A stretch of DNA of 54,794 bases from Candidatus Mcinerneyibacteriota bacterium. Its GTDB lineage: Bacteria > Macinerneyibacteriota > Macinerneyibacteria > Macinerneyibacteriales > DSCS01. The position numbers and the translations under genes are program-made. A model generated the notes under the pieces. It was not told the DNA's origin, ran no database searches, and worked only from the letters and a program-made list of their open reading frames with translations. The stretch covers positions 1-54,794 of the forward strand of contig JAFGWL010000051.1 of the NCBI GenBank assembly GCA_016937175.1. The letters are read 5' to 3'. This document shows, in pieces, positions 13,361-38,930 of the stretch. Every line of letters begins with the position of its first letter. The stretch's first letter is position 1.

Positions 13361-16300
13361 ATGGGGAAAAACGACAAATTTCTCAAGAGAATCGATAAGA
13401 TCTGCCGGGCCGGGGACTATACCGATGCTATGTATAAGCTGCAGGACGCTCTTCTGGAGCAGCCCGATGACGGAGATCTTCTCTGGAAGCTTGTCGAAGT
13501 CTATTCATTTAAAAAGGAAGACGAAAACGCCGTCAAGACACTGAGCAAAATAGTCAAATATAAGATCAAACCCCCTGATTACGTCATCGGATATATCAAA
13601 CAGGATTTCCGCAGAGCCTTTCCCTATTCCAAAGCGGCTGATTTTTTCCTTTTCGAACTCTATATCCAGCGCAAGGATTACAAAAATGCAGCCCTGGTAC
13701 TGAAAATCACCAAAGGGGAGGATCTCCGGAAGCTGGAAGCGGAGCTCTCCGATAAGGCAGAAAAGCTGCTGAAGGTCTCAGGGGAAGAGGAGACGTTGAA
13801 AAAAAACTTCGACCTCTTCTGCTCCCTGGTTATCGTCCGTTTTCTGATGAAAAAAGAGGAGACTGCTTTCGAGTCTGTCGTAGGGGTCTTGCACCTGAAG
13901 ATGTCCGAATTTTATAAGGACATCAGAGACCTCTTTCTGGCGTTGGCCCCTCTGGACAGTGTCAATCCCTTTCCCTGGTACTTTGCTGGAAGGGCTGACA
14001 TGGCTTTGGGAGAGATAGAAGAAGCCTTGGGCCATTTTCTCTCTGCTGTAAAGATTCGTCATGCCCTGGCGGGCGAGGCTATGGAGCAGCTGGCTCCGGC
14101 CCTGGAGAAGATAGAGGAGTCTTCTGCCGGCCTTAAGGCTCTGGCTGATCTTGCTTATTTCGGTGAAGAGTATGAGAAGGCTGTCTCTTACATTTCCCGT
14201 CTTGTAGAGAAAGAGGAAAATCCGGAAAACCTTTCTTTCCTCGAAGAGTATCTCACGGATATCTATTTGAAAACAGGGCCCCTGACTCCGGTCCTTCTGG
14301 CCCAATGCCGTTTTCAGATCTCCGTGGGACAATTCGATGAAGCCTTCCGTAAACTCACCCAGATCAAAGACCTCTCTTCTCCGGAAGTCATGCCCTTATT
14401 GACAGAGCTTTTGGATAAGGTCTCGGACAAGAGCGCAGCTTTTAAACTTCTCGGAGACCTGGAATACGCTGCGGGTAAGACAGGGGAAGCGGTGGAGGCC
14501 TATGAGGAAGTCTTCCGTATGGACAAGGGGTATGCCGATTTCCTGGCTGAAAAGCTCAAGTCCATGGACCTGTCCGGGGATCTCAGGGGAATACGTCTGG
14601 CGGCGGATATCGCCCTTTACCGGGGAGACCTCAAACTGGCCTTCAAACATTATAAAGACCTTATGGACCGGTTCCCCGATGAGACAGAGAGGGCTATCGA
14701 AGGCATCGAAAAAGTCGTCGAGAACTCAAAAAGGTCTGTCAAGATACGCACTCTGCTTCTGAGTATCTATATCGAGAAAAAGATGGCAGAAAAGGGGCTT
14801 CGCCTTATAGGCGAGATCGTCAAAATGGATTTTCATGCCATCCAGGATATCTATAAGTCTATCATCTCCCTGGCAGAAAATATCGAAGGCGCTGCTCCCA
14901 AACTGGCCGGTCTTGTCTCCATAATCCTCTCCAAAGACCCTGCCAACCTTTATGCTATTTTTACATCTGCTCATCTACATGCTCTGATGAACGATACAGA
15001 AAAGACTACAGAGGCCATAAAAAAGATCATGATCTCCGGGAATCAGATGCTTATAGACGGGGTGTCGGGAATATGCGATGCCCTGCTGGAAAAAAATCCC
15101 CATGACCGCCAACTGCAGTGGTCCATCGTCAATATTCTTTTCGAGGCCAGGCGTTATGACCAGATCACCGAGCAGCTCTATACCCTATATCTGAACAACC
15201 CCGGCGAAGGGGGGAATATCCTCAATCTCCTGGGAGAGATCGTGCGTCGGGGATATGTGGACAATGCCCTGGTGGAGATCTACTACAGAATCGCTCAGGA
15301 ACAGGGACTTTTCAACGAGATGGAACGTTTTATCAAAGATGCCCTGACCGTGGACGCAGAGATCCCCTGGATCTATATTGCCCTGGCCAGGCTGAGTTTC
15401 AACCGGGAAGATATGACCACAGTCGTCAAAAGTTTTCAGCGCCTGCTCAAATACGGGTCCATGGAACACTTCTATATGGTGAGGGATATCACCGATGATA
15501 TACGTAAGATCGTGAAACCAAACCCGGGCCTCTATTATATCCTGGGGCTTATCTACAGACGTATCGGCGAATATGACATAATGAGGGATCTTTTTGAGAA
15601 AGTAGCCGGAAAGGACGAGCAGACAGACAATCTTATCCGCAAAGAGATCGAGTGTGTGATCGAGGAAAAACCACAGGAGTATCTCTTCCGTATTCTGGGA
15701 GGGAAGATGGAGTATCTTCTGGGACATCACAAGGAAGCGGTGGCTTTCTTCAACCAGGCTACCAAGATCAACAGGGAATCCGCCCGCGACCTGATCACCT
15801 ACTATGAAGAGATGTCGAGGGATCATATTGATGACCAGTTTTATTTGCTGGAACTGATAAAGAATTATCTGGAATGTGGCATGGTCGATGAAGCCGTGAT
15901 GTTTTTAAAGGAGATCGATGTCCGGGAGGAGTATCTCCTTAAATATATGCAGGTGCTTCGGCTGATGACGGAATATTACCCGGAGGATGCTTTTGCTTTT
16001 CAGAAGCTGGGAGACTATTTCTGGGAAACGAAAAAATATGAAGAATCAGTGGCTCACTACAGCCAGGTTATGGCTCTCGGAGACCGTGAGAGAGAAGAAG
16101 CTATCATCGATAAGATCAGAAAAGATATCGATCATATCTCTCTGGGAGCGGTATGGCATCTCTTCATCGACCTCGCCCTGGAGCTGGGGCGCATGGACGA
16201 AGCCATCTCTTCCCTGGAAGAGGCCATGGACAAGCTCGACCCCGAGGACCTCGGGGAGCTCAAGGATCGTATAGCCCGCCTCGACTCCGATGCCAACGAT

Positions 16301-17149
16301 ATCAAGACCACACGGATCGTCGCCCTTCTTCTGATCCGGATCGGGGAATCCGGGGAAGCATTCTCTTATATGAAAGGCCGGCTCAAACTTTTGCTCTACC
16401 ATCCGCCGGTGGCCATGGAGCTTTTTGACCAGCTTCTCGAGGGATCGGGTTATGAGAATGCTATCTTTACCTACTACCTCTCTTATCTTTATCAACGGGA
16501 TCTGGTTGACAAGATCGAAGAGGTCCTCTCCCACCTGGACAAGACTGATGCTGATGAACGGCAGAAAGCCAAATACGCCGTTATGTGCGGTGATATCAAA
16601 AAACGCAAGGGAAAAGAGGATGAGGCTCTCTCTTTTTACAAGCGGGCGCGGCGATATGTTCCTTCTCTTAAAGATCAGATCGCACTGTTCGAGGAAGTGA
16701 AAAAGATCAATGATGATGCCTGGATCTCATACCTGAAGCGGAGTTCCGAGCCATCCGACCGGCTGGCCCTCATGGATCTTCTGATCAGCAGAGGTGAGCT
16801 GGAAGAGGCTTATGCCCTCCTTCGGGAGCCTGTCCGGCCGGAAGATGAAAGGATGCGTCTTTATCTTCTTTTGAACTATTATGAGAAAAAAAAGGACTAC
16901 ATGAGTTATATCACAACAGCGGGGAAGATCTCTTTTGACTCACTCTCTTTGGGAGATCCCGAGGTGAAGATCATCCGGCAACTGATCAAGGCTTTCCGCG
17001 AACTTCACCTCTATCAGAAAGCCCTCTTTTATCTCCACTATTTGAAAGGCTATATCGACGATGAGGAGTATGCTGTCATACGCGGGAACATTGAACGGGA
17101 AAGACAGCACTTTGAAGAGGCCGGAGCCGGACACTATCTGACAAAGTAA
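13361..17149 (+). CDS. Giant cytoplasmic TPR repeat protein
   Basis: A 1262-residue all-helical protein built of tetratricopeptide-like repeats from end to end. Examples are AGDYTDAMYKLQDALLEQPDD near the start, GKTGEAVEAYEEVFRMD, GRMDEAISSLEEAMDKLDPED and RKGKEDEALSFYKRARRYV. There is no signal peptide, membrane helix or catalytic motif, so it should be a cytoplasmic scaffold or interaction platform. Many repeats are diverged, and charged residues (K, E, D) dominate. It lies 15 bases after era and 16 bases before the Cys-motif TPR protein, so it is part of the operon leading to the Clp-like protein and mltG. I cannot assign a named family; its partner is probably encoded nearby. Confidence 0.85.
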   Translation: MGKNDKFLKRIDKICRAGDYTDAMYKLQDALLEQPDDGDLLWKLVEVYSFKKEDENAVKTLSKIVKYKIKPPDYVIGYIKQDFRRAFPYSKAADFFLFELYIQRKDYKNAALVLKITKGEDLRKLEAELSDKAEKLLKVSGEEETLKKNFDLFCSLVIVRFLMKKEETAFESVVGVLHLKMSEFYKDIRDLFLALAPLDSVNPFPWYFAGRADMALGEIEEALGHFLSAVKIRHALAGEAMEQLAPALEKIEESSAGLKALADLAYFGEEYEKAVSYISRLVEKEENPENLSFLEEYLTDIYLKTGPLTPVLLAQCRFQISVGQFDEAFRKLTQIKDLSSPEVMPLLTELLDKVSDKSAAFKLLGDLEYAAGKTGEAVEAYEEVFRMDKGYADFLAEKLKSMDLSGDLRGIRLAADIALYRGDLKLAFKHYKDLMDRFPDETERAIEGIEKVVENSKRSVKIRTLLLSIYIEKKMAEKGLRLIGEIVKMDFHAIQDIYKSIISLAENIEGAAPKLAGLVSIILSKDPANLYAIFTSAHLHALMNDTEKTTEAIKKIMISGNQMLIDGVSGICDALLEKNPHDRQLQWSIVNILFEARRYDQITEQLYTLYLNNPGEGGNILNLLGEIVRRGYVDNALVEIYYRIAQEQGLFNEMERFIKDALTVDAEIPWIYIALARLSFNREDMTTVVKSFQRLLKYGSMEHFYMVRDITDDIRKIVKPNPGLYYILGLIYRRIGEYDIMRDLFEKVAGKDEQTDNLIRKEIECVIEEKPQEYLFRILGGKMEYLLGHHKEAVAFFNQATKINRESARDLITYYEEMSRDHIDDQFYLLELIKNYLECGMVDEAVMFLKEIDVREEYLLKYMQVLRLMTEYYPEDAFAFQKLGDYFWETKKYEESVAHYSQVMALGDREREEAIIDKIRKDIDHISLGAVWHLFIDLALELGRMDEAISSLEEAMDKLDPEDLGELKDRIARLDSDANDIKTTRIVALLLIRIGESGEAFSYMKGRLKLLLYHPPVAMELFDQLLEGSGYENAIFTYYLSYLYQRDLVDKIEEVLSHLDKTDADERQKAKYAVMCGDIKKRKGKEDEALSFYKRARRYVPSLKDQIALFEEVKKINDDAWISYLKRSSEPSDRLALMDLLISRGELEEAYALLREPVRPEDERMRLYLLLNYYEKKKDYMSYITTAGKISFDSLSLGDPEVKIIRQLIKAFRELHLYQKALFYLHYLKGYIDDEEYAVIRGNIERERQHFEEAGAGHYLTK

Positions 17150-17165: not shown

Positions 17166-18770
17166 ATGGACCAGAACTTATGCCCCTTCCTGAACGATAA
17201 CGAAGGAAAACCCATTTCCTGTATGAAAAAAGAGTGTTTCCTCTATGATGCTCCGTCCCAGGCCTGCATCTTTCAGGCTATTGACTTGCATAATAAAGAG
17301 AATGTGACCAAACTGGGGAAACTTATTAAAAAGAGCAGCAATGATAATGGTATTTTGATTAAAAAAATAGGGACACTTCTCAATAACGGCATGAAACCCA
17401 TGATGGAGTTTTTCAAAGTCATGGATAATGGGAAAAAGATCGAAGAACTCATCGGACTGCTGAGCCGTGAAAAGGGGGGGCAGCTTTCAGAAGAAACTGC
17501 CGAAAAGGAGCCGTTCGCCCTGGGCGGGTTGGAAAACGCCCTGGGCCGGAACACAGAAATCCTGCTCCGCCTTCAGGAACTTCTGGGGGAGGAAGGTCCT
17601 CTGGCTGAAAAGATGGGAGAAGCGGCCCGGGCCGCTCTTGATATGAAAACCTCTCTGGAGGAGATGAAGGCGGGCCTGAAGACGTTGCCCGAAAGCAGCG
17701 GAGAAGAGAAACCGGGAAAAGGGAAAGAAGATTACCTGGAATCCATGAAGCTTCTTTTGGATACCTTAAAGAAACCCCTGGCTGCGACATTGAAGATCCA
17801 GAAAGAGTCCTATGACCGATTGGGGTTCTTTTCTGAAACGGCAGGTGAAGCCATGACTGCTTTGCATGAGCAGTCAGCAGAAAACAAGACAGCCTTTCAG
17901 GATCTGGCCCGTAACGTCCGTGAGAATACAGAGACATTACAGAACCTCCATCAGGAAGGGCCTCTGTATCAGGAGGCCAGGCAGCTGAATGAAAAGGCAA
18001 CCCTCTATATGGAACAGGCCAGGGAAACGGCAGCCTCACAGCAGGAGACATCTCTTAAGATGCTTGAGAGTCTGGAAGCTATCCGACTGAGCATGGAAGG
18101 ATTGGGACAAAAACTGGAACAGCTTGAAAAACGGATGGATCACCTGGACGTCATCCGCGAAGGGATGGATATCTGTGTCGAATCCCAACAAGCCCTCTCC
18201 CGGAGTTTTGTCAGCGGAATGGAAAAGATGGAAGCCTTTGCCGTACTTCAGAAAGAGTATCTGCAAAATGAGGAATCTGCTATCAGGATGAAGAAGGCGG
18301 ACGACCTGAACAACACAGGGCTCACTTTTCTGATGAACGGAGAACTTTCAGCAGCTATAGACTGTTTTAAAGAGGCCATCACCCTCAACAACCGTCTCTG
18401 GGGAGCCTACAGCAACCTGGGGCTGGCTTTCAGCGAAAAGGGGGAGAAGGAGAAGGCCAAGGATGTCTTCAAAAAACTTATCAAACTTAATCCTGAGTTC
18501 AGTGAGAGCTATTATAACCTGGGCATGATCCTTGTGGAAGAAGACTTTGTGGAAAAAGCCGTCCCCCTCTTTAGAAAATCCATTGAAAAGAGGCCCGATT
18601 TTGCCAAGGCCTATGTTGCCATGGGGAATGCTCTGTACGAGCTCGACCGCATCGAGTTCGCTGTCAAAGCTTGGGAAAAAGCCGTGGCCCTGGATCCGAC
18701 CCTTGACGAGACGAAAGAACAGTTGATGAAATTGAAAGAACTGGGAGAGTTAGGAGAAGAGGAAGAATGA
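17166..18770 (+). CDS. Protein with N-terminal four-cysteine motif, long coiled coil and C-terminal TPRs
   Basis: 534 residues in three parts. The first 36 carry four cysteines (C6, C19, C24, C34) in CPFL-x9-SCMKKECFLYD-x5-CIF, a layout that could hold zinc or an iron-sulfur cluster. Residues about 40-375 are long amphipathic helices rich in E, K, Q and L, resembling coiled-coil signalling or scaffold rods. Residues about 380-525 contain four good TPRs (for example GELSAAIDCFKEAITLNN, GEKEKAKDVFKKLIKLNP). There is no signal peptide or membrane helix. The GGAGG site precedes ATG 17166 by 5 bases. Its stop overlaps the start of the Clp-like gene, so the two are translationally coupled. I do not recognise the whole architecture. 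Confidence 0.85.
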   Translation: MDQNLCPFLNDNEGKPISCMKKECFLYDAPSQACIFQAIDLHNKENVTKLGKLIKKSSNDNGILIKKIGTLLNNGMKPMMEFFKVMDNGKKIEELIGLLSREKGGQLSEETAEKEPFALGGLENALGRNTEILLRLQELLGEEGPLAEKMGEAARAALDMKTSLEEMKAGLKTLPESSGEEKPGKGKEDYLESMKLLLDTLKKPLAATLKIQKESYDRLGFFSETAGEAMTALHEQSAENKTAFQDLARNVRENTETLQNLHQEGPLYQEARQLNEKATLYMEQARETAASQQETSLKMLESLEAIRLSMEGLGQKLEQLEKRMDHLDVIREGMDICVESQQALSRSFVSGMEKMEAFAVLQKEYLQNEESAIRMKKADDLNNTGLTFLMNGELSAAIDCFKEAITLNNRLWGAYSNLGLAFSEKGEKEKAKDVFKKLIKLNPEFSESYYNLGMILVEEDFVEKAVPLFRKSIEKRPDFAKAYVAMGNALYELDRIEFAVKAWEKAVALDPTLDETKEQLMKLKELGELGEEEE

Positions 18771-20947
18771 AAAGATATAATTTTTCGGCCCAACTGCAGC
18801 AGGTGATCCAGGAAGCGGAAAACCGCGCTGTGGCAGAGAAGCACGGGGTGATCGTCCCCCTTCATCTCATGGCAAGCCTGCTGGGTCTCAATGACCCCAA
18901 GGTGGAGTATTGGCTCAAAATACACAATATCGACCCCCAGAAGCTTCTGGCCCTTCTGGACGAAGCTTTGCTGAAAAAGGAGAAGGCCCCGGACAAAGGA
19001 GAGGTGAAGATCAGCGACCATACACGCGAAGCCCTGAGGCTCAGCGGGATCATTGCCATGGAATCCCAGGAGGCTGAGGTAAAACCGCTTCATCTCCTTC
19101 TGGCCCTTCTGCATGAAGCGGACGGAGAGTTGTCGGCCCTCTTTACGGACCTGGGAGTGGAACTCTCTTCTCTGGATGACCTGATCTATATCGACGAGTT
19201 GAAACGCTCATTTACAGAAGACAAAAGCCTGATAGGGCAGTTCAGCGTTGATATCAGCCAGCTTGTCCGTCAGCGGAAAAGAAAACCTCTGGCTACCGAC
19301 TGGAAGACGACGGGATCCCTTCTGGAGGTCTTGTCACGGATCTATAAGAACGTTCCTCTTCTCGTGGGACGCCCCGGCATCGACAAAAGTATCATGATAG
19401 AGGGACTTGCCTGGCGGATGGCCCGGGGGGAGGGGCGTTTCGATTCCTGCAGGGTCCTCCACGTCCTGACTGATGCTATGATGGGACATGTCAAAGAGGC
19501 CAACGCCTTCGTGGAACTGCTTCATCAGTTTCTCAACGAAGCTGCGGAGCATTCCGGGACCATACTCTATTTTGACGAGATCTATCCCGATTTTTACGGA
19601 TCAGGCCCTCTGGACCTTCCGGGCCTTCTGAAATCAGCTCTTCGACAGGGTATCGTTCGGATAATCGGAGCGACAAAAAGGGAGAACATCAGCCTGATCC
19701 TTGACCAGGACCTCTTTCTTAAAGAAAAGATACAGATCATCAAACTTAAACATCTCTCTGCAGATAAAGTCCTGAACATCATCTATGCATCGAAAAGTGA
19801 GATCGAAGAATATCATAATGTCATTATCTCAGCTCCCCTGGCGACCCAGGCTTTTTACCTTTCTGCCCAGTTTTTTGCCAACGATGAGATAGAAGGGACT
19901 CTTCAGCTTTTGGATATGGCAGCTACCCGGGTACGGCTTAAAGCCAGGACCCAGACACAGCGGCGGTTGAAGTCGGAAGACCTCTACCAGGCCGTCTCTG
20001 ACTCTTTGGGAGTCCCGCTCTGGCGCATCAGCGGAGAACGGGAGTATTATGATGCGATTCCGGAGATGCTCAAAGAACGGATTATTGGCCAGGATGATGC
20101 TGTGGAGCGGGTCGCACGGGTGATCACGACCCGGGAGACTCCCTTTAATGTCAATCCCCGTATGCCCAACGGGATCATGCTCTTTGTGGGGCCCAGAGGG
20201 GTGGGGAAAAAAGAACTCATCCATGGACTGGCGGAGGTCCTGTTCGGTGATCCCGAAAGGATCTCCGTCTTTGACATGGCTCGTTACGAAGAGCCCGAAT
20301 CACTGTGGGAGCTGACCGGCTACAGCGACAAGGCCAAGGGAGAGATCTATCCCTCTATCCTGACCCGTGTACTCCAGAAATATCCTTTGAGTATCCTTTT
20401 TCTGGAAGAGATCGATAAAGCCTGCCCCGATGTCCAGCGGTTTTTTGCTGAAGTCTTTAAAACAGGTGCCTTTGAGGACAGCCTGGGACAGCAGGTCTCT
20501 CTTTCAGGGGTGACCGTTGTCATGACAGTGAAAGCCTATGAAGAGAAGAAAAAACAGCTTGGATTTACTCCCGACAGTGAAGTCGATTACGATGTGAAAG
20601 CTGTCCACGAAGGGCTGGCTTCCCTTCTGGACCCGGAGCTCATGGGTATTATGGACCAGGTTGTGATCTTCAAAGAGTTAAGGGATAACGAGCTTAAAAA
20701 GATCATCAGCCGGAACCTCACAGACACACTCCGGGATAAGTGGGACATTGAATGGGCCATCAGCGAAAGGCTTCTCGGGTTCCTCGTAGACGAGGTTAAA
20801 AAAGAGAAAGATAAACTAAGGTCTATGGAGCGTCTTTTTCAGGCCCATGTCTTTTCACCTTTGGCGTTGGCTCTGGGACGCATGGACCTTTCTGAGAGGG
20901 AAAGGGTGGCTTTGGGTTATAACGGAAAGGAATTAACCATCGAATGA
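18767..20947 (+). CDS. ClpA/ClpC-like double AAA+ protein with degenerate ATPase motifs
   Basis: 726 residues with the Clp layout: a Clp N domain with two repeats (about 1-140), AAA-1 (about 165-430) and AAA-2 plus C-terminal small domain (about 440-726). There is no ClpB middle domain. Key residues differ from active Clp proteins. Walker A-1 is GRPGIDKS (201-208; Asp where Gly precedes Lys). Walker A-2 is GPRGVGKK (475-482; Lys where Thr/Ser binds Mg). Walker B-2 is ILFLEE (543-548; Glu for Asp). The usual D1 pore loop (KYRG) is absent, the D2 pore loop reads GYSD rather than GYVG, and the NRID-type arginine-finger region reads GIMDQ. Walker B-1 (YFDE) is kept. An LGF tripeptide at 598-600 sits where ClpC has its ClpP-binding loop. 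Likely a pseudo-unfoldase or adaptor (inference). Confidence 0.9.
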   Translation: MKRYNFSAQLQQVIQEAENRAVAEKHGVIVPLHLMASLLGLNDPKVEYWLKIHNIDPQKLLALLDEALLKKEKAPDKGEVKISDHTREALRLSGIIAMESQEAEVKPLHLLLALLHEADGELSALFTDLGVELSSLDDLIYIDELKRSFTEDKSLIGQFSVDISQLVRQRKRKPLATDWKTTGSLLEVLSRIYKNVPLLVGRPGIDKSIMIEGLAWRMARGEGRFDSCRVLHVLTDAMMGHVKEANAFVELLHQFLNEAAEHSGTILYFDEIYPDFYGSGPLDLPGLLKSALRQGIVRIIGATKRENISLILDQDLFLKEKIQIIKLKHLSADKVLNIIYASKSEIEEYHNVIISAPLATQAFYLSAQFFANDEIEGTLQLLDMAATRVRLKARTQTQRRLKSEDLYQAVSDSLGVPLWRISGEREYYDAIPEMLKERIIGQDDAVERVARVITTRETPFNVNPRMPNGIMLFVGPRGVGKKELIHGLAEVLFGDPERISVFDMARYEEPESLWELTGYSDKAKGEIYPSILTRVLQKYPLSILFLEEIDKACPDVQRFFAEVFKTGAFEDSLGQQVSLSGVTVVMTVKAYEEKKKQLGFTPDSEVDYDVKAVHEGLASLLDPELMGIMDQVVIFKELRDNELKKIISRNLTDTLRDKWDIEWAISERLLGFLVDEVKKEKDKLRSMERLFQAHVFSPLALALGRMDLSERERVALGYNGKELTIE

Positions 20948-21939
20948 AGATCTTTGAAAAAACACGCCAGCTGGCCCTGAAAAAGTATTGGATCCCCGCT
21001 CTCCTTTTTATCCTTCTGTTCGCCTTTTTCTTTGAATGGTTCCGGCCGTTTAAGGTGGAAGGGACTGTCTACCTGGAGATCAAAAGGGGGGATACTCTTC
21101 AGACTGTGGTCAAAGCTCTCTATGAGCGCGGAATCACCCCAAGTCCTACTTCTTTCAAACTCTTTTATAAGATCTTCGGATGGAAGATAAATGCCGGCGA
21201 TTATTATCTCAAGGGTTATGTCAATATCGTAGAGCTGGCGGATATGTTCAGAAAAGGTTTTAAAAAGGGGATCCGGGTCACAATCCCAGAAGGATTCCAA
21301 TACCGGCAGATCGCCGGGCTTCTGGCGGATAAGGGAGTCATCGGCAGCCCGGAAGAGATGTTGGGCCTCTACAGAGACCAGGCACTTCTGGAGGAGCTCA
21401 AGATCTCCGGCCCCACTCTCGAGGGATACTGTTATCCCGATACATACTATTTCACACCCGGTGAGGATCCCCGTGATATCATCCGTTTCCTGAACAGACA
21501 GCTTCATGAAAAAATAGGCCGCGAAGAACTGGAAAAGGCTCTTCGTGATTCTCCCTGGACCCTTCATGAAGTCCTGACGCTGGCTTCTATCGTAGAAGGG
21601 GAAGCCCGTCTCCCCAAAGAGCGCCCGGTGATCGCCCAGGTCTTTGCGAAGAGGATCAGGATAGAGATGCCCCTGGAAAGCTGTGCCACTGTCCTTTTTG
21701 CTCTGGGGAAGCATCGGGAAAAACTCTATTTTGAGGATCTTGAGATCGATTCTCCCTACAATACCTACAAGATATACGGCCTTCCGCCGGGCCCCATCAA
21801 CAGCCCGGGGATCGATTCCATCAGAGCTGTCCTCTATCCCGCTGAAACCGATTACCTCTATTTTGTATCCAAAAATGACGGATCCCATCACTTTTCCAGA
21901 ACATATGAAGAGCATCTCGAGGCAAAGAGGATATATTGA
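20944..21939 (+). CDS. mltG: Endolytic murein transglycosylase MltG (YceG-like)
   Basis: Inner-membrane lytic transglycosylase that cuts nascent glycan strands and limits peptidoglycan chain length. One N-terminal membrane helix (about residues 16-34) is followed by a LysM-like region and the YceG domain. The catalytic glutamate falls at E218 in ASIVEGEA, the same number as in E. coli MltG. Other family marks are LEGYCYPDTYYF, SPYNTYKIYGLPPGPINSPG and the closing SKNDGSHHFSRTYEEH. The 331-residue length is normal. The gene overlaps the Clp-like gene by four bases (ATGA), an unusual neighbour; mltG is more often beside yqgF or tmk. The U32 gene starts on the stop codon. Confidence 0.96.
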   Translation: MKIFEKTRQLALKKYWIPALLFILLFAFFFEWFRPFKVEGTVYLEIKRGDTLQTVVKALYERGITPSPTSFKLFYKIFGWKINAGDYYLKGYVNIVELADMFRKGFKKGIRVTIPEGFQYRQIAGLLADKGVIGSPEEMLGLYRDQALLEELKISGPTLEGYCYPDTYYFTPGEDPRDIIRFLNRQLHEKIGREELEKALRDSPWTLHEVLTLASIVEGEARLPKERPVIAQVFAKRIRIEMPLESCATVLFALGKHREKLYFEDLEIDSPYNTYKIYGLPPGPINSPGIDSIRAVLYPAETDYLYFVSKNDGSHHFSRTYEEHLEAKRIY

Positions 21940-23150: not shown

Positions 23151-26100
23151 GTGGAGAATAAGAGCTTCTATTTCCTCGCTCCCACTCTTCTGGTCATCAG
23201 TTATCTCAATCTTGTCCTGGACTCACCTGTATGGATCATCTTTTTTCTTCTCCTTGCGGCAGGGGCAGCCCTTTTTTCAAAAAAGAGACTCCCTTTTCTG
23301 GCTGCCATGGCCCTGGGGCTTCTTTATCTCCTCTCAGTGAATGATATTCAGCACAATGACTACTTCCGTGAGAAGAGGCTTTTCGGGATCCGTGATGCTG
23401 TGGAAAGAGAGTATTCGGCCCTCAAGGCAGACTTCTATGAAAAGCGAAAAGAGATCGTTAAAAAAGAGTACTCGCAGGAGAGCGATATCGGCTATACAGC
23501 GAGGGATACCGAGTATACCCTGATGCAATGGACGGGGAGAGAACCCTTTGACGATCTCCGGAAGAGGGCCTTTTTCCCAAGGCTGGAGATCATGGGGAAT
23601 GAGGCCAGTCTTGTGTTTCATTTTTATGATGAGAACAGGATCTATTCCCTTCGCCACTATATCACGGCCCTCTACGGGACGGAAAAGACAAAATCGCAGT
23701 GGCTCAGACACATTCAGGGGCGATTTGATACTCGGATAACTCTATATTTCACTCCGGGACAGTTCTATATTTATGATGAGCCCATCCTCTACAGCGATAT
23801 CCGAAAAGGAGAGTCCGTATACCTTGCTTCCGCCCATGCCCTCTATTCCAAAATGGAGGATGATATCATCCTGAAGATCGAAGCTCATCCCCTTTCCTGG
23901 TATTTGACAGAGGCAAAAAGGAGGTTTTTACTTCTCAACGCTTTTATCTATCTCTTTTTTGCGCTGTTTCTTTTTCCACGGGACCGGCGGTTCGATGCAG
24001 CGGCCATCGCTCTTCTACTCCTCTCACTCGCCTTTTTCCCTGCTGCGGCCCTCATTATCCTTCTCTCTTGCCTGGCCTGGAAATCTCGGAGGATCATCAC
24101 GCTTCTGAGAGACCGGGCCCTCGGACAGGAAGAGTTCCTTGACCTGGCCCTTGGATATCAGGCTTTCCTTCTGGCCTGGCACTATTTCTATTCTCATACC
24201 ACGGCCTATGTGAAGATGGCCTTCTGGATGGGGGTTCTTCTGAAAGAGAGAAGCCTGACCATTGCTTCGTTTGTCCTTGTCTTTTTCATAGCAGTCTTTG
24301 TGGTCCGTCGGATCAAAGTGACACATAAATGGGCCCTTACCGGAGCTCTCTTTCTTCTCCTGTTGAGCCTGGATCCCTCCCTGCTCCTTCTGGGTATAGC
24401 AGGCCTGATGCCTCTGGGGCTCTTCACTTTGAAGAAAAAGAGAGCGTTGGGGGCTTTTTATTTCTATCTCCTCTTTATCCCCATGGTCCCTGTCGCAGCT
24501 CAGTTGATCACGGGGATCGACGATAAGCTGGTGAGAAGCCAGATGGAGATCATCGAGTCGGAGCCGGCCCGGGTCATGTTCGAAACGGTGGATAAGCTCC
24601 GAAAGGACCAGGCCTTTCTGTGGTCTCTGAAAGAGAATGTCCATTATGATGATACCAATTTCGCTTTTTTCAAATGGCTCCGTTCCCCTTTGTCTGAAAT
24701 GCCTTATATGAATTTTATCTATTTTGAAAACAGAAACGGGGATATTTACAGTCAATATGGATGGGGCTGTTCCATCCAACCCTTCAGAGGGTCTCCGGGC
24801 TCCATCTCCTTCAGGAGCGGGTTTCATCTTTATAAAGCCCCTCTGACATATGAAGGGGAGTTTGTGGGAATGGTCGTCGTCGGACTCAAAGATGATTTTT
24901 TCATGCATATCCCCGGCATGCCGGAGCTTTTTTTCAGCCATGTCAAAAGGGGGAAGGAGGTCTTCTCCACCCTGGTGTATGACCATGAAGTAATACGCGA
25001 TATGTTCCCGCAGCGTTTGGGGGGGGGCGGGGATTATTACCGTTTTTATATAAAACCGCCCTGGAAGATCGCCGTCAAGTATCTCTTTTTTATTCTGGTT
25101 TCGGAGCTTATCGTCCTTTTTATCATCGGCCTCTTTTCACAAAAATGGAGGTCTATGGCCAATGATTTTGTGAAGAGGAACATGATCATCATCCTTCTGC
25201 TCCTCATGATCCCCACATCTGCAAATATTCTTCTCCTCTCTTCGGAGATCGTGCTGGATATCCGTCAATCCCTTCGGGAAAGGGTCCTGAGGAGTAAGGA
25301 AGAGCTGACCTCACAGCTGGAAGCAGTGAGCACGGGAGACCTTTTAGACCCCGTCAGATCCCGGAACATCGCAGATTCCCTGAATGAGGATACGGTAGGC
25401 TGGACTCTCTATAAAGGGCCTGAGCGCCTTCTTTCATACGATGAAGACAGTTATCGTGTGAACATGAAGAGTGCCTATCTCTCCCGTCCTGACCTTCTGG
25501 ATATCTATATACATAAGGAGCAATGGGAACTGGATTACACGATTCCCCGTCTTCGGCACAGGTTTCTCTGGGACCGGCATCCCGGTATTATCTTTGAACT
25601 GTCGGAAGTCCTTCCGCGGCCGGCTCTCTGGCGCCTGACAGAAAGTTTCGCCTTTTCGCTTATGGTTCAGTTCCTTTTCATAGGATTGACAGTGCTTCTT
25701 CTTTATAAAAACGCAGGACATCTTCTCAGGCCCCTGTCCAAGATCATCGTGGCTACAAAGGAGGTGAGCCTGGGGAATTTCAACCACCGCGTGGAAGCAC
25801 AGACACCTATCTCTGAGATGAAAGTGCTCTTTACCAATTTCAACAGCATGGTAAAACGGCTGGCTATCCTGAAAAACAGCTTCATGGAAAATCAGAATTT
25901 CTTGAAAACCATCATCGATTCTCTTCCCGTGGGAGCGGTGACCTATGACGAAAAAGGCCATGTGGCTATCTGCAACGAAGCACTGAAGAGGTTTTTCCCG
26001 GGGCTTTCCTATAAAGACTCTGTTCCGGAGACCCTTCCCTTTCCCCTCGACTTTTTCCGCGAAGGGCAGGGAGAACTCAGAGAGAAGGGGACAGTGTTCC

Positions 26101-26894
26101 GCTACAGCATCAAAAAATTCAAATATGGGTATATCTTCCTCCTTTCCGACATCACAGGCCTGATTCTCAGTGAGAAGTTCGATCTGTGGTTTCAGCTTAC
26201 CCAGGAACTGGCCCATGAACTGAAAAACCCTCTCATGCCCATAAGGTTTTCCCTTCGCCGTCTTGAGAAGATGACTGAGCAATATGTCCCTGACGAAGGC
26301 GGCAAAGAAGCCATGAAAGACCTCTACGGGATCATCAACGAAGAGCTGGAAAGTATCCAAAAGCTCATCAACCGTTTTAGAGAGCAGACGCTGGAGGGGG
26401 AGAAGGAGATCCGCCAACTCAATGTCGGGGAAAGCCTGAAAAGGATCGCAAGCTCCTTTACTTCTTGTAATATCGACCTGCATATCTCCAAGAGCCTTCC
26501 TCAGGTCCCTTTTTCACAGGAAAAGTTCGACCTGATCATGAAGAATATCCTGGAGAACAGCCTTGAGGCCGCAGGGGAAGGGGCGGTGATCCGAATCGCC
26601 GCTTATTATGACCTCTTTAAAGGGTGTTTCGATGCCGGAAGCTGTCAATCGGGCCAAAAATATGTTATTATTCATGTGAGAGACTATTCCGGAGGGATCG
26701 GTAAGGATGTCCTCGACCGTATTTTCGAGCCCTATTTTACCAACAAAAAGGGGGGAAGCGGACTGGGGCTTTACCTTGTCCGGAAATATATGGAGGAGTT
26801 CGAAGGAGCTGTGGGAGTCAATGTCAGGGAGAAAGAAGGAACAGATATTTATCTGCTCTTCCAGACGGAAAAGAAATCAGCCGGAGGGCCATGA
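23151..26894 (+). CDS. Large NtrY-like membrane sensor histidine kinase
   Basis: 1247 residues, about twice a usual kinase. Starting at GTG 23151 there are N-terminal helices (about 5-65), a soluble segment, a cluster of about eight membrane helices (about 255-450), a second extracytoplasmic part, further helices near 640 and 680, another sensor part and a helix near 840. A HAMP domain (LLRPLSKIIVATKEVSLGNF) and a PAS domain (SLPVGAVTYDEKGHVAICNE) follow. The kinase core has the phosphorylated H1022 in LAHELKNPLMP, the N box NILENSLEAA, DYSGGIG, and GGSGLGLYLV. The partner regulator overlaps its end by four bases. The stimulus is unknown; part of the N-terminal half lies outside the cell membrane and could bind a ligand. 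Confidence 0.92.
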   Translation: MENKSFYFLAPTLLVISYLNLVLDSPVWIIFFLLLAAGAALFSKKRLPFLAAMALGLLYLLSVNDIQHNDYFREKRLFGIRDAVEREYSALKADFYEKRKEIVKKEYSQESDIGYTARDTEYTLMQWTGREPFDDLRKRAFFPRLEIMGNEASLVFHFYDENRIYSLRHYITALYGTEKTKSQWLRHIQGRFDTRITLYFTPGQFYIYDEPILYSDIRKGESVYLASAHALYSKMEDDIILKIEAHPLSWYLTEAKRRFLLLNAFIYLFFALFLFPRDRRFDAAAIALLLLSLAFFPAAALIILLSCLAWKSRRIITLLRDRALGQEEFLDLALGYQAFLLAWHYFYSHTTAYVKMAFWMGVLLKERSLTIASFVLVFFIAVFVVRRIKVTHKWALTGALFLLLLSLDPSLLLLGIAGLMPLGLFTLKKKRALGAFYFYLLFIPMVPVAAQLITGIDDKLVRSQMEIIESEPARVMFETVDKLRKDQAFLWSLKENVHYDDTNFAFFKWLRSPLSEMPYMNFIYFENRNGDIYSQYGWGCSIQPFRGSPGSISFRSGFHLYKAPLTYEGEFVGMVVVGLKDDFFMHIPGMPELFFSHVKRGKEVFSTLVYDHEVIRDMFPQRLGGGGDYYRFYIKPPWKIAVKYLFFILVSELIVLFIIGLFSQKWRSMANDFVKRNMIIILLLLMIPTSANILLLSSEIVLDIRQSLRERVLRSKEELTSQLEAVSTGDLLDPVRSRNIADSLNEDTVGWTLYKGPERLLSYDEDSYRVNMKSAYLSRPDLLDIYIHKEQWELDYTIPRLRHRFLWDRHPGIIFELSEVLPRPALWRLTESFAFSLMVQFLFIGLTVLLLYKNAGHLLRPLSKIIVATKEVSLGNFNHRVEAQTPISEMKVLFTNFNSMVKRLAILKNSFMENQNFLKTIIDSLPVGAVTYDEKGHVAICNEALKRFFPGLSYKDSVPETLPFPLDFFREGQGELREKGTVFRYSIKKFKYGYIFLLSDITGLILSEKFDLWFQLTQELAHELKNPLMPIRFSLRRLEKMTEQYVPDEGGKEAMKDLYGIINEELESIQKLINRFREQTLEGEKEIRQLNVGESLKRIASSFTSCNIDLHISKSLPQVPFSQEKFDLIMKNILENSLEAAGEGAVIRIAAYYDLFKGCFDAGSCQSGQKYVIIHVRDYSGGIGKDVLDRIFEPYFTNKKGGSGLGLYLVRKYMEEFEGAVGVNVREKEGTDIYLLFQTEKKSAGGP

Positions 26895-28171
26895 ATATTC
26901 TTGTCGTTGATGATGAGAAAAATATCAGACGCGTGATGGAGATCATCATCACTGAGATGGGATTTACGTTTACAGGGGCCGAAGACCCCGAGAAGGCGAT
27001 GGAGGTCCTGGAGAAATCTCCGGTGGATATTCTTGTTTTGGATATCAAAATGCCGAAAATGGACGGGATCTCCTTTTTAAAGATCGTCCAGTCTCAATAT
27101 CCTGAAATACCCGTTATCATGCTTTCAGGGCATGGGACTGTCTCGGGAGCTGTAGAATCCATGAAGATCGGGGCAGCTGACTTTATTGAAAAGAACGGGG
27201 ATGAAGAACAGATCAGGTCCGTTTTGAGGAAAACAGCTGAAATGATCCGATGGAGAAAATCTGCCGATGAAGGGGACTTTCTCTTCAGAGACTCCAAAAT
27301 GATCAGACTTGTAAAAAAAGCAGACAGCCTGTCCGGCAAGAAGATCAATCTTCTCCTGACCGGGGAGAACGGCGTGGGCAAGGAGGTCATCGCCCACTAC
27401 ATCCACCGTAAAACCATGGGAAAGGGCGCTCCTTTTATCCCTGTCAACTGTGGGGCTCTCCCTGAAGGTCTATTTGAGTCGGAGATGTTCGGTTTCGAAA
27501 AGGGAGCATTCACCGGGGCAGATACCAAAAAAAAGGGTAAGATCAGGGCCGCTGAAGGAGGGACTCTTTTTCTGGACGAGATCGGAGACCTTTCTCCGAA
27601 AAGCCAGATAAGCCTTCTCCGGGTCCTGCAGGAGAATCAGGTGACCCCCTTGGGAAGTGTAACACCTCTTTCTGTGGACTTTAACCTCATCACAGCGACC
27701 AATAAGGATCTGACCATGATGGTGATGAACAGAAAATTCAGAGAGGACCTCTATTTCAGGGTCGCTGTCATGGAGCTCGATATTCCTCCTCTGCGGGAAC
27801 GCCGAGAAGATATTATGCCCCTGGCCGTACATTTTTTGCATCAGGTCTGCACGAAATACGGGTTGGGGAAAAAAGGGATACACCCCGATCTCGAAAAATT
27901 TATGCTTCACTATACGTGGCCCGGCAATGTCCGGGAATTAAAAAACTTTGTCGAACGCCTGGCGGTCCTCTCTGAAGGAGAGACCCTCTATTATAAAGAA
28001 ACGGACCTCAAAAACGCGAGAATGGACCTGAATTCCCTTTTGGACAAAAACGAAAAGGAGATCCTTTCCAGAGTCATCAGAATGACCGGAGGGGACAGGG
28101 AAAAGATGTCAAGACTTCTGAATATTCCGGTCAAAGAGGTCAAAGAAAGGCTTCAGCGGCATGAACTCTGA
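26891..28171 (+). CDS. NtrC-family sigma54-dependent response regulator (NtrX-like)
   Basis: 426 residues in three parts. The receiver domain has D51 (VLDIKMP) as phosphorylation site. The AAA+ domain has Walker A GENGVGKE, the sigma54-contacting loop GAFTGA and Walker [10 protein letters not shown]. The C-terminal Fis-type helix-turn-helix is in residues about 390-426 ([22 protein letters not shown]). The C-terminal domain is short and the HTH less canonical than usual. It should activate sigma54 promoters when phosphorylated by the kinase encoded just upstream. I found no clear -24/-12 element in the window. The following gene begins 11 bases before its end. Confidence 0.95.
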
Positions 28172-30776
28172 AAGACTATCAGCGCTTATGATAACAGTTT
28201 TTTTTATGGCAGGGATCGTTGCCGCCCTTCAGGCACCTCTCTCCCTTAACGGGCAGGAGCCGGCTGTGTCGCCTCCCCGTGCGGGATCCTGCTCTCTTCT
28301 GGTCATCCGGGTGGAGTTCGAGCCGGATACGGATCCGGCCACCACAGGAGACGGGCTTTTTGAGATAAGGACTCCGGCTGATTCCCAGGCCGAACCCTTT
28401 CTTTATGATTATTTTGTGCTGTTCGGATTGGAGCAAAAAGAGAGCCCCTTCAGAACCCCCGGGGGCGCTGTCGCCTTTCCCTACTACACATTGAATGAGT
28501 ATTTCCGGGAGATCTCAGGCGACTTGTTCCGCCTGGAAACCATCACTGTAACACCGGATATCTATGTGACCCAGGGGAAAGAGATGGCCTATTACGGCGC
28601 CAATGTGAATCAGGAGGCGCGTCTCTGCGAATTGGCGGATACAGCCCTTCTGCTGGCTCAAAACGATTATGATTTCTCCCAATACGACTATATCGCGATT
28701 CTTCATGCAGGAGCCGGAGAAGAGTTTGATATGAACCGCGACTCCCCCGATGATATCCTGACCACGGCACTGACCCCGGCCGCCTATGAGGAGATCACAG
28801 GCACTCCTTTGCGAAATGATGTGGCCAACGGGGTCATGATCATCCCCGAAACGGAAGATCAGGACTCAGGTCCTGATGATATGCCTCTCAGCACCCTGGG
28901 GCCGGCGGCCTTCTCCCTAGGGACCCTCATGGGAATGCCCACCACATATGACCTTTCGGGACGTTCGTCCGGAGTGGGGATGTGGGACCTTATGGGATAC
29001 GGCTTCTCCCATTATCTCGGATTCCTCCCCATGCCTCCTTGCGGGTATATCAAAGTCTCTATGGGCTGGGCTGATCCCGTCCTCCTGGACAGCAAAGGGG
29101 ACCTCTCCCTGGATCCCTTCAGCTGTGACGTGAAAGAGGATCTTTGGAACGGGAATCATCTCTATAAGATCATCATCGGAGAAGGTGAGTACTTTCTCCT
29201 GGAATACAGAAACGGCCAGGGGATCGGAGGGGCTTTTCAGGCCTTTACCTATCTGGGGCGCCAGGGAGATCATTATGTCATGGAGCCTTCAGAAAAGGCC
29301 CTGCCGGGGATCACCATCTGGCACGTAAACGAGGAGATCATCTCCCTGGATCCCGATAACCTTAACGGGTCTTTCGGAAAAGGGCTGGACCTGGAAGAGG
29401 CCGATGGCCTCAACGACCTGGACAGAGCCATCGGGGAGGCCGGGAGCCTGGGAGACAGGCTGGACTGTTTCAATTCGGGGACATGGGATATTTTTACAGA
29501 TGAGACCTCTCCCTCTGCCCGGGACAGCCGGGGAGCACGGAGCGGGATCAGGCTGACCGACCTTACAGCGGAAACAGCTGCAGGAAACGTCACCGTGGGA
29601 TCACAGCGTCCTGACTATTTTCCTTTGGCCTTTCCGGGGCTTCTTCAGGCCACACAGGATTTCTTTGTGACCTCATCACAGGTGTATGCTTCGGACGGGC
29701 TTTCCCTTTTCTCCTTCGAGGGCGAGATTCCGCTTCTTCTTGACAAGACGGTTCTTTTTACAGATGAGCACCTCTACTCTCTCCCCGGAGGAGAGATCCT
29801 CCAGACGTGGAGCACTTTTTTCGGAGAAGCGCTGCTGGAGGCCAGGCGCGAAAACGGGTATTATTTCCTGCGTACCGTCCAGAGGGCACTCCTCTGGGAT
29901 GAGGCCTTTACTCTCGTTGCTTCGGAAGAGCGTCCGGAAACTGCATTTTTGGGGGTAGCAGGGGTTCATAAAGTCTCTCTTTCAGCCGGGATCCTCTACG
30001 TAGACGAAGTTCCTATTCTGGAGGGAGTCGAAGATATCCGCCTTTACGACGGAGAGATTTTTACCGCCGCTGAGGGCCTCTTTTACAGTATCGACCCCGA
30101 AGATCCGGCTCCTTCCCTTTTTGGGGCCTCTCCGGACGGGGTGTCGGATTTTTTCCCTCTTGATTATGACAGGGATGGTGTGACTGAGCTTTTTGCCCTG
30201 ACACCGGAGCGCCTTGTGATCCTCAATGAGACCGGCCCCGAAAAAAGCTACTTTCTTCCCGGTTCAGCTGAGATGGCCCCTTTTGAAAAAGACGGGAAGG
30301 TCTGCCTTCTTTTGACAGGGGAAAAAACGATTCTTCTGGACACGGCTACAGGTAAACAAACGCTTTATACGGGACAAAATATCCGGCTGGCCGGAGGGGA
30401 TGGGGGGAATCTTTTTTACGGAAATGAAGATATCATATACGGGCTGACTCTTTACGACCGGCTTCTCAGACAGGGGTCTGTCCTGGTTCCGCCGGGAGAA
30501 GGGGTTTTGCCTCCTATTGAAGAGAAGGCCGTTTATGCCTATCCGAATCCTGTAGAAGGAGAGACTCTTTTTATCCGTTTTTCAGCAAGGTCCGGAGAGA
30601 AAGTCCATCTGAGTCTTTACAACGCAGCTATGCAGGAGCTGAAGAAGAAAACAGCGGTAACGGTCTCCGGCGAGAACAATGTCTCTCTATCCCTCCGGGG
30701 AGTCGCATCGGGAACCTATCTTATCAGGCTGAAAACCGGAGACAAAACACATTTTTTGAAGGTCATAAGGTTATGA
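28161..30776 (+). CDS. Exported M6 metalloprotease-like protein lacking the zinc motif
   Basis: 871 residues with a signal peptide (first about 32). Residues about 45-330 resemble M6 (immune inhibitor A type) peptidases: YYTLNEYFREISGDLF, then the block ending LGTLMGMPTTYDLSGRSSGVGMWDLMGYG, and the later GWADPV. Where M6 enzymes have HExxH this protein has F251-S-L-G-T255, so both zinc histidines and the catalytic glutamate are missing. The middle is beta-rich and repetitive. The last about 85 residues (AYPNPVEGETLFIRF ... GTYLIRLKTG) match the FlgD-Ig/type IX-like C-terminal domains often found on secreted proteins of FCB-related phyla. It lies between two kinase/regulator pairs and overlaps both neighbours. 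Probably a surface or periplasmic binding protein. Confidence 0.85.
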   Translation: MNSERLSALMITVFFMAGIVAALQAPLSLNGQEPAVSPPRAGSCSLLVIRVEFEPDTDPATTGDGLFEIRTPADSQAEPFLYDYFVLFGLEQKESPFRTPGGAVAFPYYTLNEYFREISGDLFRLETITVTPDIYVTQGKEMAYYGANVNQEARLCELADTALLLAQNDYDFSQYDYIAILHAGAGEEFDMNRDSPDDILTTALTPAAYEEITGTPLRNDVANGVMIIPETEDQDSGPDDMPLSTLGPAAFSLGTLMGMPTTYDLSGRSSGVGMWDLMGYGFSHYLGFLPMPPCGYIKVSMGWADPVLLDSKGDLSLDPFSCDVKEDLWNGNHLYKIIIGEGEYFLLEYRNGQGIGGAFQAFTYLGRQGDHYVMEPSEKALPGITIWHVNEEIISLDPDNLNGSFGKGLDLEEADGLNDLDRAIGEAGSLGDRLDCFNSGTWDIFTDETSPSARDSRGARSGIRLTDLTAETAAGNVTVGSQRPDYFPLAFPGLLQATQDFFVTSSQVYASDGLSLFSFEGEIPLLLDKTVLFTDEHLYSLPGGEILQTWSTFFGEALLEARRENGYYFLRTVQRALLWDEAFTLVASEERPETAFLGVAGVHKVSLSAGILYVDEVPILEGVEDIRLYDGEIFTAAEGLFYSIDPEDPAPSLFGASPDGVSDFFPLDYDRDGVTELFALTPERLVILNETGPEKSYFLPGSAEMAPFEKDGKVCLLLTGEKTILLDTATGKQTLYTGQNIRLAGGDGGNLFYGNEDIIYGLTLYDRLLRQGSVLVPPGEGVLPPIEEKAVYAYPNPVEGETLFIRFSARSGEKVHLSLYNAAMQELKKKTAVTVSGENNVSLSLRGVASGTYLIRLKTGDKTHFLKVIRL

Positions 30777-32362
30777 AAAGAAAGATCATACTTTCCTTCG
30801 CTCTGGTCAACCTCTTTCTCCTTGTGATATTTCATCTGGTCTACAGAGCCGCTCTGGATGTCTATCGTTCACCGCTGCAGCATAATCTTTACGCTTTGAT
30901 CCGGCTGGCTGAACGCCTTCCTGTGGAAGAGCGACCGGGGGAGTTCATCGATATGGCCGGGACAAGGCTTCTTGAGACAGTCTATCTTCTCGATAACGAA
31001 GAGTTCTACGGACGCATCGATTTGACGGTGAAGGCCGAACTTGCTGATATCACCACTCGAAAAGAATATTTCAACGGACGGAAACTCTACAAATATTATC
31101 CGTCAAGAGAAGGGCGGGACCTTGTTCTCGTCATGGCTGTCCCGGAGAATATCTGGAAAACGGGAATCTTGAAGGTAACGGGGCTTCTTGTGCTTTTCGT
31201 CGTGGCGACTAACATCATCTTTTTTCTGATCACCCGCCTTTTTCTCATCAGGCCCATGGAATATATCAGCCTTATCACAGACAGGATCCGGCAGGGGGAT
31301 TACGATGCCCGTGTGGAGATCGAGGGAAGCCGGGAAGTGGTCAACCTGGCCGACAACATCAACAATATGGCCGAGACGATCAAGAATGATATTGCACTTC
31401 TCAATCTGGTCATCGAAAATATGAAACTCGGCTTTCTTGTCTATAATGATGAAGGAGAGGTCGTCCTCATCAACCGGGAGGCAAAGAAAACCCTGAAAAT
31501 TTCTGAAGGGGATCCTGTGACACCCCATTTCCCTTTTCTTCCCGCAGACCCGTCTGAAAGCCGACAGGGTTTTTTCGCCGGGGCGAAGATCTATGACCGG
31601 GCCGGGGCGCCTCTTTTTGCCGATGTGGCTCTTTCCTCTTTTCAGCAGGGAGAAGGCTTTTCCCATGCCCTTGCTCTTCAGGAGATAGAAGATATATCTC
31701 ATCACAACAACAGCCACCTGATCTCTTTTATGCGCAGTCTTACCCTTATGCTGGCCCATGAGATCAAAAACCCCCTCAACGTCATGGGGATGATCACCCA
31801 GATGGCAGAAAAAAAATTCGGCCCTGACCCCATGTGGGAGGATATCCGCGATGAAGAACGCAATATCACCACAGTGATCGACACCTTTTCCTCCTTTTTC
31901 ACCATAAACCCCCGCCCCTTTGAAATCGGCGATTTCATCGTGGCCTGGGTAGAGAAGTGGAAAAAGATCTATGCTGAAAAGGGGCTTCTCCTTGAAACCC
32001 GCCTTGATAAGGCAGGGATGGTCGATTTTGACAGTCAGAGGTTAGAGATGATCCTCAACAACCTTGTCAAAAATACGTTGGAAAACGGAAAACCCGGCTG
32101 CAGGGCTCTCCTTGACCTTTCGGGCAGGGATGATAAGATATATCTTGTCCTGACAGATGATACAGGAGGGATAAAGAAGGAGACACTCTTCAAGTTTCTC
32201 GACGGAGGCCATTCCACTAAGGATGCATCACGGGGCTGGGGATTGGCCCTTGTCCGGCTTCTTCTCAATCTGGGGGGAGCGGATCTTGAGATCAAAGGAG
32301 GAACGGGCAAAGAAACGGAAGTGAGGTTGGTCTTTGAAAAATATGAAAGTCCTCATCGTTGA
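30773..32362 (+). CDS. Membrane sensor histidine kinase (NtrY/AtoS type)
   Basis: 529 residues. An N-terminal helix (about 5-25), a short periplasmic sensor part and a second helix (about 133-158) lead into HAMP (LIRPMEYISLITDRIRQGDY). A PAS-like segment follows (MKLGFLVYNDEGEVVLINRE). The kinase core has H329 in LAHEIKNPLNV, an N-box (NNLVKNTLENG), DDTGGI and GWGLALVRLLLNLGG. The ATP-binding domain is compact but complete. It overlaps the pseudo-protease gene by four bases and the next regulator by about 30, so the pair is translationally coupled. Its place just upstream of the regulator and the pilus genes suggests it may sense an envelope state (inference). Confidence 0.93.
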   Translation: MKRKIILSFALVNLFLLVIFHLVYRAALDVYRSPLQHNLYALIRLAERLPVEERPGEFIDMAGTRLLETVYLLDNEEFYGRIDLTVKAELADITTRKEYFNGRKLYKYYPSREGRDLVLVMAVPENIWKTGILKVTGLLVLFVVATNIIFFLITRLFLIRPMEYISLITDRIRQGDYDARVEIEGSREVVNLADNINNMAETIKNDIALLNLVIENMKLGFLVYNDEGEVVLINREAKKTLKISEGDPVTPHFPFLPADPSESRQGFFAGAKIYDRAGAPLFADVALSSFQQGEGFSHALALQEIEDISHHNNSHLISFMRSLTLMLAHEIKNPLNVMGMITQMAEKKFGPDPMWEDIRDEERNITTVIDTFSSFFTINPRPFEIGDFIVAWVEKWKKIYAEKGLLLETRLDKAGMVDFDSQRLEMILNNLVKNTLENGKPGCRALLDLSGRDDKIYLVLTDDTGGIKKETLFKFLDGGHSTKDASRGWGLALVRLLLNLGGADLEIKGGTGKETEVRLVFEKYESPHR

Positions 32363-34709: not shown

Positions 34710-34710
34710 T

Positions 34711-35271
34711 ATGCTGGAAATCAATCTAATTCCCAAAGAGGAACGGAAAGGGCGGCATAATATCCCTATCGGCCCCTTTTCCATTATCCTTGTCTTTGCC
34801 GGGCTTATTGTCGTCATGATCCTTCTCTATCTGAACAACATGAGGGTGATCAATAAACTGACCGGGGATCTGGCCAAGGTGACAGAGGATAAAAAACGCT
34901 ATGTGAGATTCGATCAGGAATATCAGGCGTTGAACAACCAGCTGAAAGAGATCGATAAAAAGTTTCAGATCCTGAGTAAATTGGACAAGGGCAGGACTTT
35001 CGCTCCGAAACTCATGGAGGATGTCCTGATCAGGCTGCCGCTGAACACCTGGCTTCTCTCCTTTGACCTCAACCGGAACAATCTGAGGATCCAGGGGTCA
35101 GGGATGAATAATTATCTGATCTCGGATTTTGCCGAAAGCCTGGAACGTTCGGAGTTTTTCCAGGCCATCGAGATCGGGGAAGTCAAGGAGAAAAAAGAGA
35201 AGATCGGGGAACAGGACACCTTAACCTCATCCTTTGAGTTAAGTTGTACCATCAAACCCGATTTCAGGTAG
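34711..35271 (+). CDS. pilN: Type IV pilus assembly protein PilN
   Basis: Bitopic inner-membrane protein of 186 residues. The cytoplasmic N-terminus MLEINLIPKEER carries the INLIP motif that docks into PilM. One membrane helix (about residues 25-46) is followed by a coiled coil and a small periplasmic ferredoxin-like domain (LNTWLLSFDLNRNNLRIQGSG region). It starts one base after the pilM stop and ends 9 bases before pilO, with which it forms a heterodimer in characterised systems. Confidence 0.93.
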   Translation: MLEINLIPKEERKGRHNIPIGPFSIILVFAGLIVVMILLYLNNMRVINKLTGDLAKVTEDKKRYVRFDQEYQALNNQLKEIDKKFQILSKLDKGRTFAPKLMEDVLIRLPLNTWLLSFDLNRNNLRIQGSGMNNYLISDFAESLERSEFFQAIEIGEVKEKKEKIGEQDTLTSSFELSCTIKPDFR

Positions 35272-35280
35272 GGAGGGGAC

Positions 35281-35868: not shown

Positions 35869-35877
35869 GGAGTGCCT

Positions 35878-38912: not shown

Positions 38913-38930
38913 TCGTGGACTTCAAAGGAG

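Follow-up and report, generated by a model that had tools for sequence, protein, structure and literature searches.

A Clp-family gene with altered ATPase motifs

The window analysed here, a single contig of 54,794 nucleotides (JAFGWL010000051.1, assembly GCA_016937175.1), comes from a Candidatus Mcinerneyibacteriota genome of 1.88 Mb that is 98.7% complete. An exact open reading frame at positions 18767..20947 (forward strand, as for all parts of this gene described below) encodes a protein of 726 residues with two AAA+ domains and no M-domain, which we call pseudo-Clp. The original prediction, made from this DNA alone, described a pseudo-unfoldase of ClpA/ClpC-like layout with damaged ATPase motifs; the layout holds, and the motifs quoted for it (GRPGIDKS, GPRGVGKK, LEE, GIMD and LGF) are all found in their expected places. 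Pfam recognizes AAA_2 (8.7e-24), AAA and Clp_N in the protein, while NCBIfam matches it to the ClpB model (E = 8.5e-76) and, over residues 7-699, to the ClpA model (3e-72), in both cases far below the equivalog cut-off: the score is 244 bits with TIGR02639, the ClpA equivalog, for which the curated cut-off is 993 bits. The closest PDB sequences are chains of ClpB, ClpC and ClpA, with E values down to 1.2e-57. Homology is thus beyond doubt, and pseudo-Clp is a member of the Clp/Hsp100 double-ring (class 1) family of AAA+ proteins. Its alignment fits best the order N domain, D1 and D2, with the M-domain absent as in ClpA; the N-terminal part (residues 1-145, 18767..19201) forms a double Clp_N-like domain, recognized by PF02861 at residues 97-138, by the helices of the structural model and by alignment.

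Pseudo-Clp is present once in each of the three Ca. Mcinerneyibacteriota genomes compared. Its orthologues, in DSCS01000062 (72% identity) and in VSIX01000035 of Candidatus Mcinerneyibacterium aminivorans (36% identity), have open frames; the former sequence (DSCS01000062.1, our L039) is titled 'Bacillota bacterium SpSt-1200' but groups in the genus of the window genome, and its label is probably wrong. A profile search of 386 genomes gave 1298 bits within the phylum, then 284 bits outside it with no intermediate score, and found no orthologue beyond the phylum; the five best matches from other phyla have both P-loops intact. The ten loci returned by a separate scan of genome contigs comprise two members of this phylum and eight Clps with intact catalytic motifs. 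No relative was found among the viral contigs searched, and a viral origin was rejected on this ground. In the phylogenetic tree the three pseudo-Clps are monophyletic (100/100) on a stem of length 5.3, which is so long that the tree does not settle whether the parent subfamily lay on the ClpA or the ClpC side.

Between the two congeneric genomes, nonsynonymous divergence of pseudo-Clp amounts to 0.183 per site, to be compared with 0.041 for ClpC and 0.145 for mltG; synonymous divergence is 0.76 and saturated, so that the dN/dS ratio (nonsynonymous over synonymous) is not usable. The gene is under purifying constraint, yet evolves faster than ClpC. This constraint, the open frames in three assemblies and the orthologues at 72% and 36% identity together rule out a sequencing error, a chance frameshift or a decaying pseudogene. 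An intact Walker A motif in a homologue at the same place would have spoken for an error; none was found at the locus, and the orthologues share both the substitutions and the neighbours. The idea of a conserved pseudo-unfoldase has therefore been borne out by the same losses in all three genomes, with fold residues kept and the gene constrained. Judged from its sequences, pseudo-Clp is an ancient pseudo-unfoldase conserved throughout the phylum and no error.

Residues lost and kept in the two rings

For the comparison of single residues we aligned 29 intact (canonical) Clp proteins with the three pseudo-Clps; triplets such as K/K/E give, in this order, the window protein, its 72%-identical congener (G001) and the 36%-identical aminivorans orthologue (G002). 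At eight sites one residue occurs in 29 of 29 canonical Clps and another in every pseudo-Clp, namely Gly206 of the D1 P-loop, T304, R320, R321, T482, Y523, N589 and R628. More broadly, of 156 positions that are near-invariant in Clp proteins, 60 are kept and 66 are lost in all three pseudo-Clps.

Walker A of D1, GRPGIDKS in the window protein (201-208, 19367..19390), reads GGPGIEKS in G001 and GSLGINKD in G002; Gly206 is replaced by D/E/N and Lys207 is kept throughout. The D1 Walker B motif ILYFDEI (19562..19582) retains FDE in all three proteins. Sensor 1 of the same ring has T304 changed to K/K/E, its arginine-finger site (19721..19729) has KEK for ERR, with R320 changed to E/E/N and R321 to K/K/K, and the pore aromatic, which is Y or F in 28 of the 29 canonical proteins, has become E/D/D. 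The second ring presents a comparable picture. Its Walker A, GPRGVGKK (475-482, 20189..20212), is invariant among the pseudo-Clps, with Lys481 kept, Thr482 changed to Lys and Thr477 to Arg; in the pore-loop region (20318..20356) the canonical GYVGYEEGG is replaced, Tyr523 giving way to A/S/S and Val524 being lost; sensor 1 has N589 changed to K/K/K; and the arginine-finger site (20636..20656) reads ELMGIMD instead of EFxNRID (GIMD at 627-630; EIID in G001, HLID in G002), with Arg628 changed to I/I/L. In the sensor-2 motif (20813..20833), KLRSMER for GARPLKR, Arg685 is kept in all three.

These data agree with the earlier description of both Walker A motifs, the D2 arginine-finger region and the pore loops as altered, each change recurring in the three orthologues. 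They qualify what had been said of the second Walker B motif: LEE is indeed present (546-548 within LFLEE, 20396..20410), but the catalytic Glu548 is kept in every case and G002 has a normal LFLDE, so that the change is minor. The notion of generally damaged ATPase motifs likewise holds for the eight invariant sites and not for Walker B of D1, both P-loop lysines or the sensor-2 arginine. Conversely, the losses extend beyond those first noted, to the arginine fingers and sensor 1 of D1, the sensor-1 asparagine of D2 and two glutamates of the N domain that in ClpC bind phosphoarginine. Of the features expected in an active unfoldase, the Walker A consensus GxxGxGK[ST], sensor 1 and the arginine fingers are missing from both rings, as are aromatic pore loops, whereas the Walker B acidic pair remains (DE in D1 of all three, EE/EE/DE in D2).

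From family knowledge (cf. PMC9035409), a Clp protein in which sensor 1, the arginine fingers and the P-loop threonine are all missing should very probably be unable to hydrolyse ATP, and one without pore aromatics should not thread substrate. Could pseudo-Clp nevertheless be a slow or divergent ATPase with relocated catalytic residues? Both P-loop lysines, both Walker B glutamates and the sensor-2 arginine (K207, K481, E271, E548 and R685) are kept in all three proteins, and K482 and K589 might assume charge roles. However, the P-loop threonine, the sensor-1 asparagine, all arginine fingers and both pore aromatics have been lost together, and the pore losses argue against threading at any rate of hydrolysis; we consider an active enzyme very improbable. 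Three new basic residues, R477, K482 and K589, surround the D2 nucleotide site and are invariant among the pseudo-Clps. Since they add to a P-loop lysine, a Walker B glutamate and a sensor-2 arginine that are kept, it is conceivable that D2 may still hold nucleotide or phosphate as a static structural ligand.

The N domain had been described as remaining, and a Clp_N-like domain is indeed found, but its binding residues are not those of ClpC. In ClpC, E32 and E106 bind phosphoarginine (PMC12583610); the aligned positions are Leu32 and Leu108 in the window protein and Ile and Phe in the third genome, whereas both ClpC-like paralogues of these genomes have kept the two glutamates. With both replaced, the N domain of pseudo-Clp probably has a changed ligand.

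A loop of the ClpP-docking type

The part of highest conservation deserves separate consideration. The segment MTVKAYEEKKKQLGF (residues 586-600, 20522..20566), which runs from the altered sensor 1 (Asn589 to Lys) through LGF at 598-600, is identical at 15 of 15 positions in the three pseudo-Clps, and no other window of 15 residues equals it in proteins of which the G002 member is only 36% identical overall. The LGF tripeptide, previously suggested as a possible ClpP contact, indeed occupies the position of the ClpP loop: it is invariant in all three proteins and aligned with the IGF/VGF docking loop of ClpA and ClpC, and its distance from sensor 1 is that of ClpA-like proteins (L012, L017, L021). 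Pseudo-Clp thus has the hydrophobic-Gly-Phe loop after sensor 1 by which ATPase partners of ClpP are recognized. The equivalent motif of ClpC from Staphylococcus aureus inserts into the H-site of ClpP, and once it is mutated the two proteins no longer interact (PMC12521514). Each of the three genomes has one ClpP, together with an intact ClpC carrying an LGF/VGF loop. A contact of pseudo-Clp with ClpP via LGF is possible, though in our judgement somewhat less likely than not.

A different reading of the same loop is that pseudo-Clp serves as a dead Clp platform for protein contacts unconnected with ClpP, LGF being conserved for another reason. The precedent is the plant SMXL/D53/SMAX1 proteins, in which a double Clp-N domain precedes degenerate D1 and D2 ATPase domains and which scaffold corepressors (PMC12184505); moreover, the invariant stretch reaches well upstream of LGF, so that LGF alone does not explain the constraint. 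Yet the tripeptide lies exactly where the ClpP loop should be, with ClpA-type spacing in all three proteins, and ClpP is present, which makes this reading unlikely. As a comparison of architecture, SMXL is the nearest precedent for a doubly degenerate Clp; these are plant nuclear regulators related to ClpB/HSP101, which carry EAR motifs as well as an M region, whereas pseudo-Clp is bacterial, shows no M region in the alignment and has kept the LGF loop. The two likely arose separately, and pseudo-Clp would then represent a second, bacterial origin of the double-dead Clp layout.

A further possibility is suggested by a second ClpC-like ATPase (G000_C38; L065 1499-3949, L067, L069), found in all three genomes with intact catalytic motifs and an M-domain of ClpC size, from which the LGF/VGF docking motif is absent in every case. 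Pseudo-Clp might insert into rings of paralogous ClpC and poison or retune them, in one variant with this second ATPase as its partner, which has kept the ATPase motifs and lost the docking motif where pseudo-Clp has done the reverse. The losses of the two proteins are complementary in three genomes of three, and the fold-core residues of pseudo-Clp are kept; were such complementation true, motor and protease docking would be split between two subunits. On the other side, identity between pseudo-Clp and either ClpC paralogue is only about 25%, their M-domain is missing from it, the paralogous genes lie elsewhere in the genome and, without arginine fingers, pseudo-Clp could not stimulate a neighbouring subunit in the manner of LAP1/LULL1; a mixed ring therefore seems improbable to us. 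The torsin cofactors LAP1 and LULL1 also have a degenerate AAA+ domain, but act by supplying an arginine finger (PMC5425593), and an activator of their type was rejected for pseudo-Clp, which has lost these residues in both rings.

Among bacterial proteins, ClpI of Actinomycetota is comparable as a distinct double-ring Clp class found by bioinformatics, but its ATPase modules are intact and its M-domain is present; it shows that new classes of Clp are still being described (PMC10149685). Keyword searches of the literature, with subscription journals outside their coverage, found no bacterial Clp described earlier in which both rings are dead.

Gene neighbourhood and proposed role

The genes around pseudo-Clp form a block that is co-linear in all three genomes and consists, in order, of a CorC-type protein, a DUF502 protein, era, two proteins with tetratricopeptide repeats (TPR), pseudo-Clp, mltG, a U32 peptidase, a histidine kinase and a response regulator. 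The operon-like setting with TPR proteins and mltG, which had been recognized in the window, is thus shared by the three genomes. The first TPR protein (1262 residues, 13361..17149, forward strand) has an equivalent position in each. The second (534 residues, 17166..18770, forward strand) overlaps the start of pseudo-Clp by 4 bp, and its orthologues lie at 11932-13527 of L049 and 11266-12849 of L051; an invariant N-terminal motif with four cysteines, CPFL..C....CFLY......CI, is followed in it by a long coiled coil. The cysteines form a candidate metal or Fe-S site, and the first 200 residues of the protein match this phylum only among 60 genomes. Downstream, mltG (yceG; 20944..21939, forward strand), which is single copy in the genome, overlaps the stop codon of pseudo-Clp by four bases, ATGA, in all three genomes; the best reading of this overlap is a translational coupling of the two genes. 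A longer open reading frame lies antisense over mltG in the window. The chances that pseudo-Clp is a partner of the TPR proteins appear evenly balanced, while a partnership with MltG is rather doubtful.

What, then, might a Clp protein do that has lost its motor? The explanation we favour, though with no more than middling confidence, is that pseudo-Clp is a hydrolysis-dead, ATP-independent scaffold or adaptor, present throughout the phylum, which derives from a Clp ATPase of the ClpP-partner type and may dock on ClpP. It shares with ClpA and ClpC the order of domains, homology over the full length, the LGF-type loop and a matching modelled fold, while differing from both in the catalytic, arginine-finger and pore-loop residues of the two rings and, from ClpC, in the phosphoarginine glutamates replaced by Leu, Ile or Phe. 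According to this proposal, the protein would fold like ClpA/ClpC but neither hydrolyse ATP nor thread substrate; a client would be bound by the changed N domain together with the TPR proteins encoded next to it, the resulting complex would attach to ClpP through the LGF loop, and docking might control the turnover or assembly of envelope proteins, for instance those working with MltG. A more specific form, in which a dead Clp double ring acts as an ATP-independent cap or adaptor of ClpP, fed by the four-cysteine TPR protein as a dedicated component and possibly complementing the ClpC-like ATPase without ClpP loop, is a speculation to which we attach a low probability. No ClpS, the partner of ClpA, was found by searching the three genomes of the phylum.

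Several considerations weigh against a ClpP-bound scaffold. Docking on ClpP normally uses the six loops of a ring, and formation of AAA+ rings broadly needs ATP binding, so that one inactive subunit by itself might attach to ClpP only weakly. Since the entire block is co-linear, linkage with mltG need not mean function, and this link is weaker than it appears. The comparison covers two independent genera only, as G001 belongs to the genus of the window genome. Finally, the AlphaFold2 model computed from the three phylum sequences was poor, with a mean predicted local distance difference test (pLDDT) of 60.4, and was not used; with 29 canonical Clps added the pLDDT rose to 84.8 and the model matches ClpC and ClpA complexes, but 29 of the 32 rows of that alignment are ordinary Clps, which favours a Clp fold and makes this agreement partly built in.

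Pseudoenzymes often retain the non-catalytic half of the job of a machine, and the half kept here includes a strictly conserved loop of the ClpP-docking type. If binding to ClpP were true, pseudo-Clp would offer a direct test of whether gating or recruitment of this protease is possible in the absence of ATP, an issue that is usually approached with drugs such as the acyldepsipeptides (ADEPs).

The region downstream of mltG has features of its own. Two tandem pairs of histidine kinase and response regulator, at 23151-28171 and 30773-33683, encode mutually similar proteins, and the first pair is part of the co-linear block around pseudo-Clp in each of the three genomes. Beside this histidine kinase operon, positions 28161-30776 encode a protein of 871 residues with a C-terminal Por_Secre_tail, a sorting domain of type IX secretion. 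Further on, at 33699-40323, lies a type IV pilus-like cluster with PilM and a secretin carrying an AMIN domain, followed by a protein of the O-antigen ligase type.

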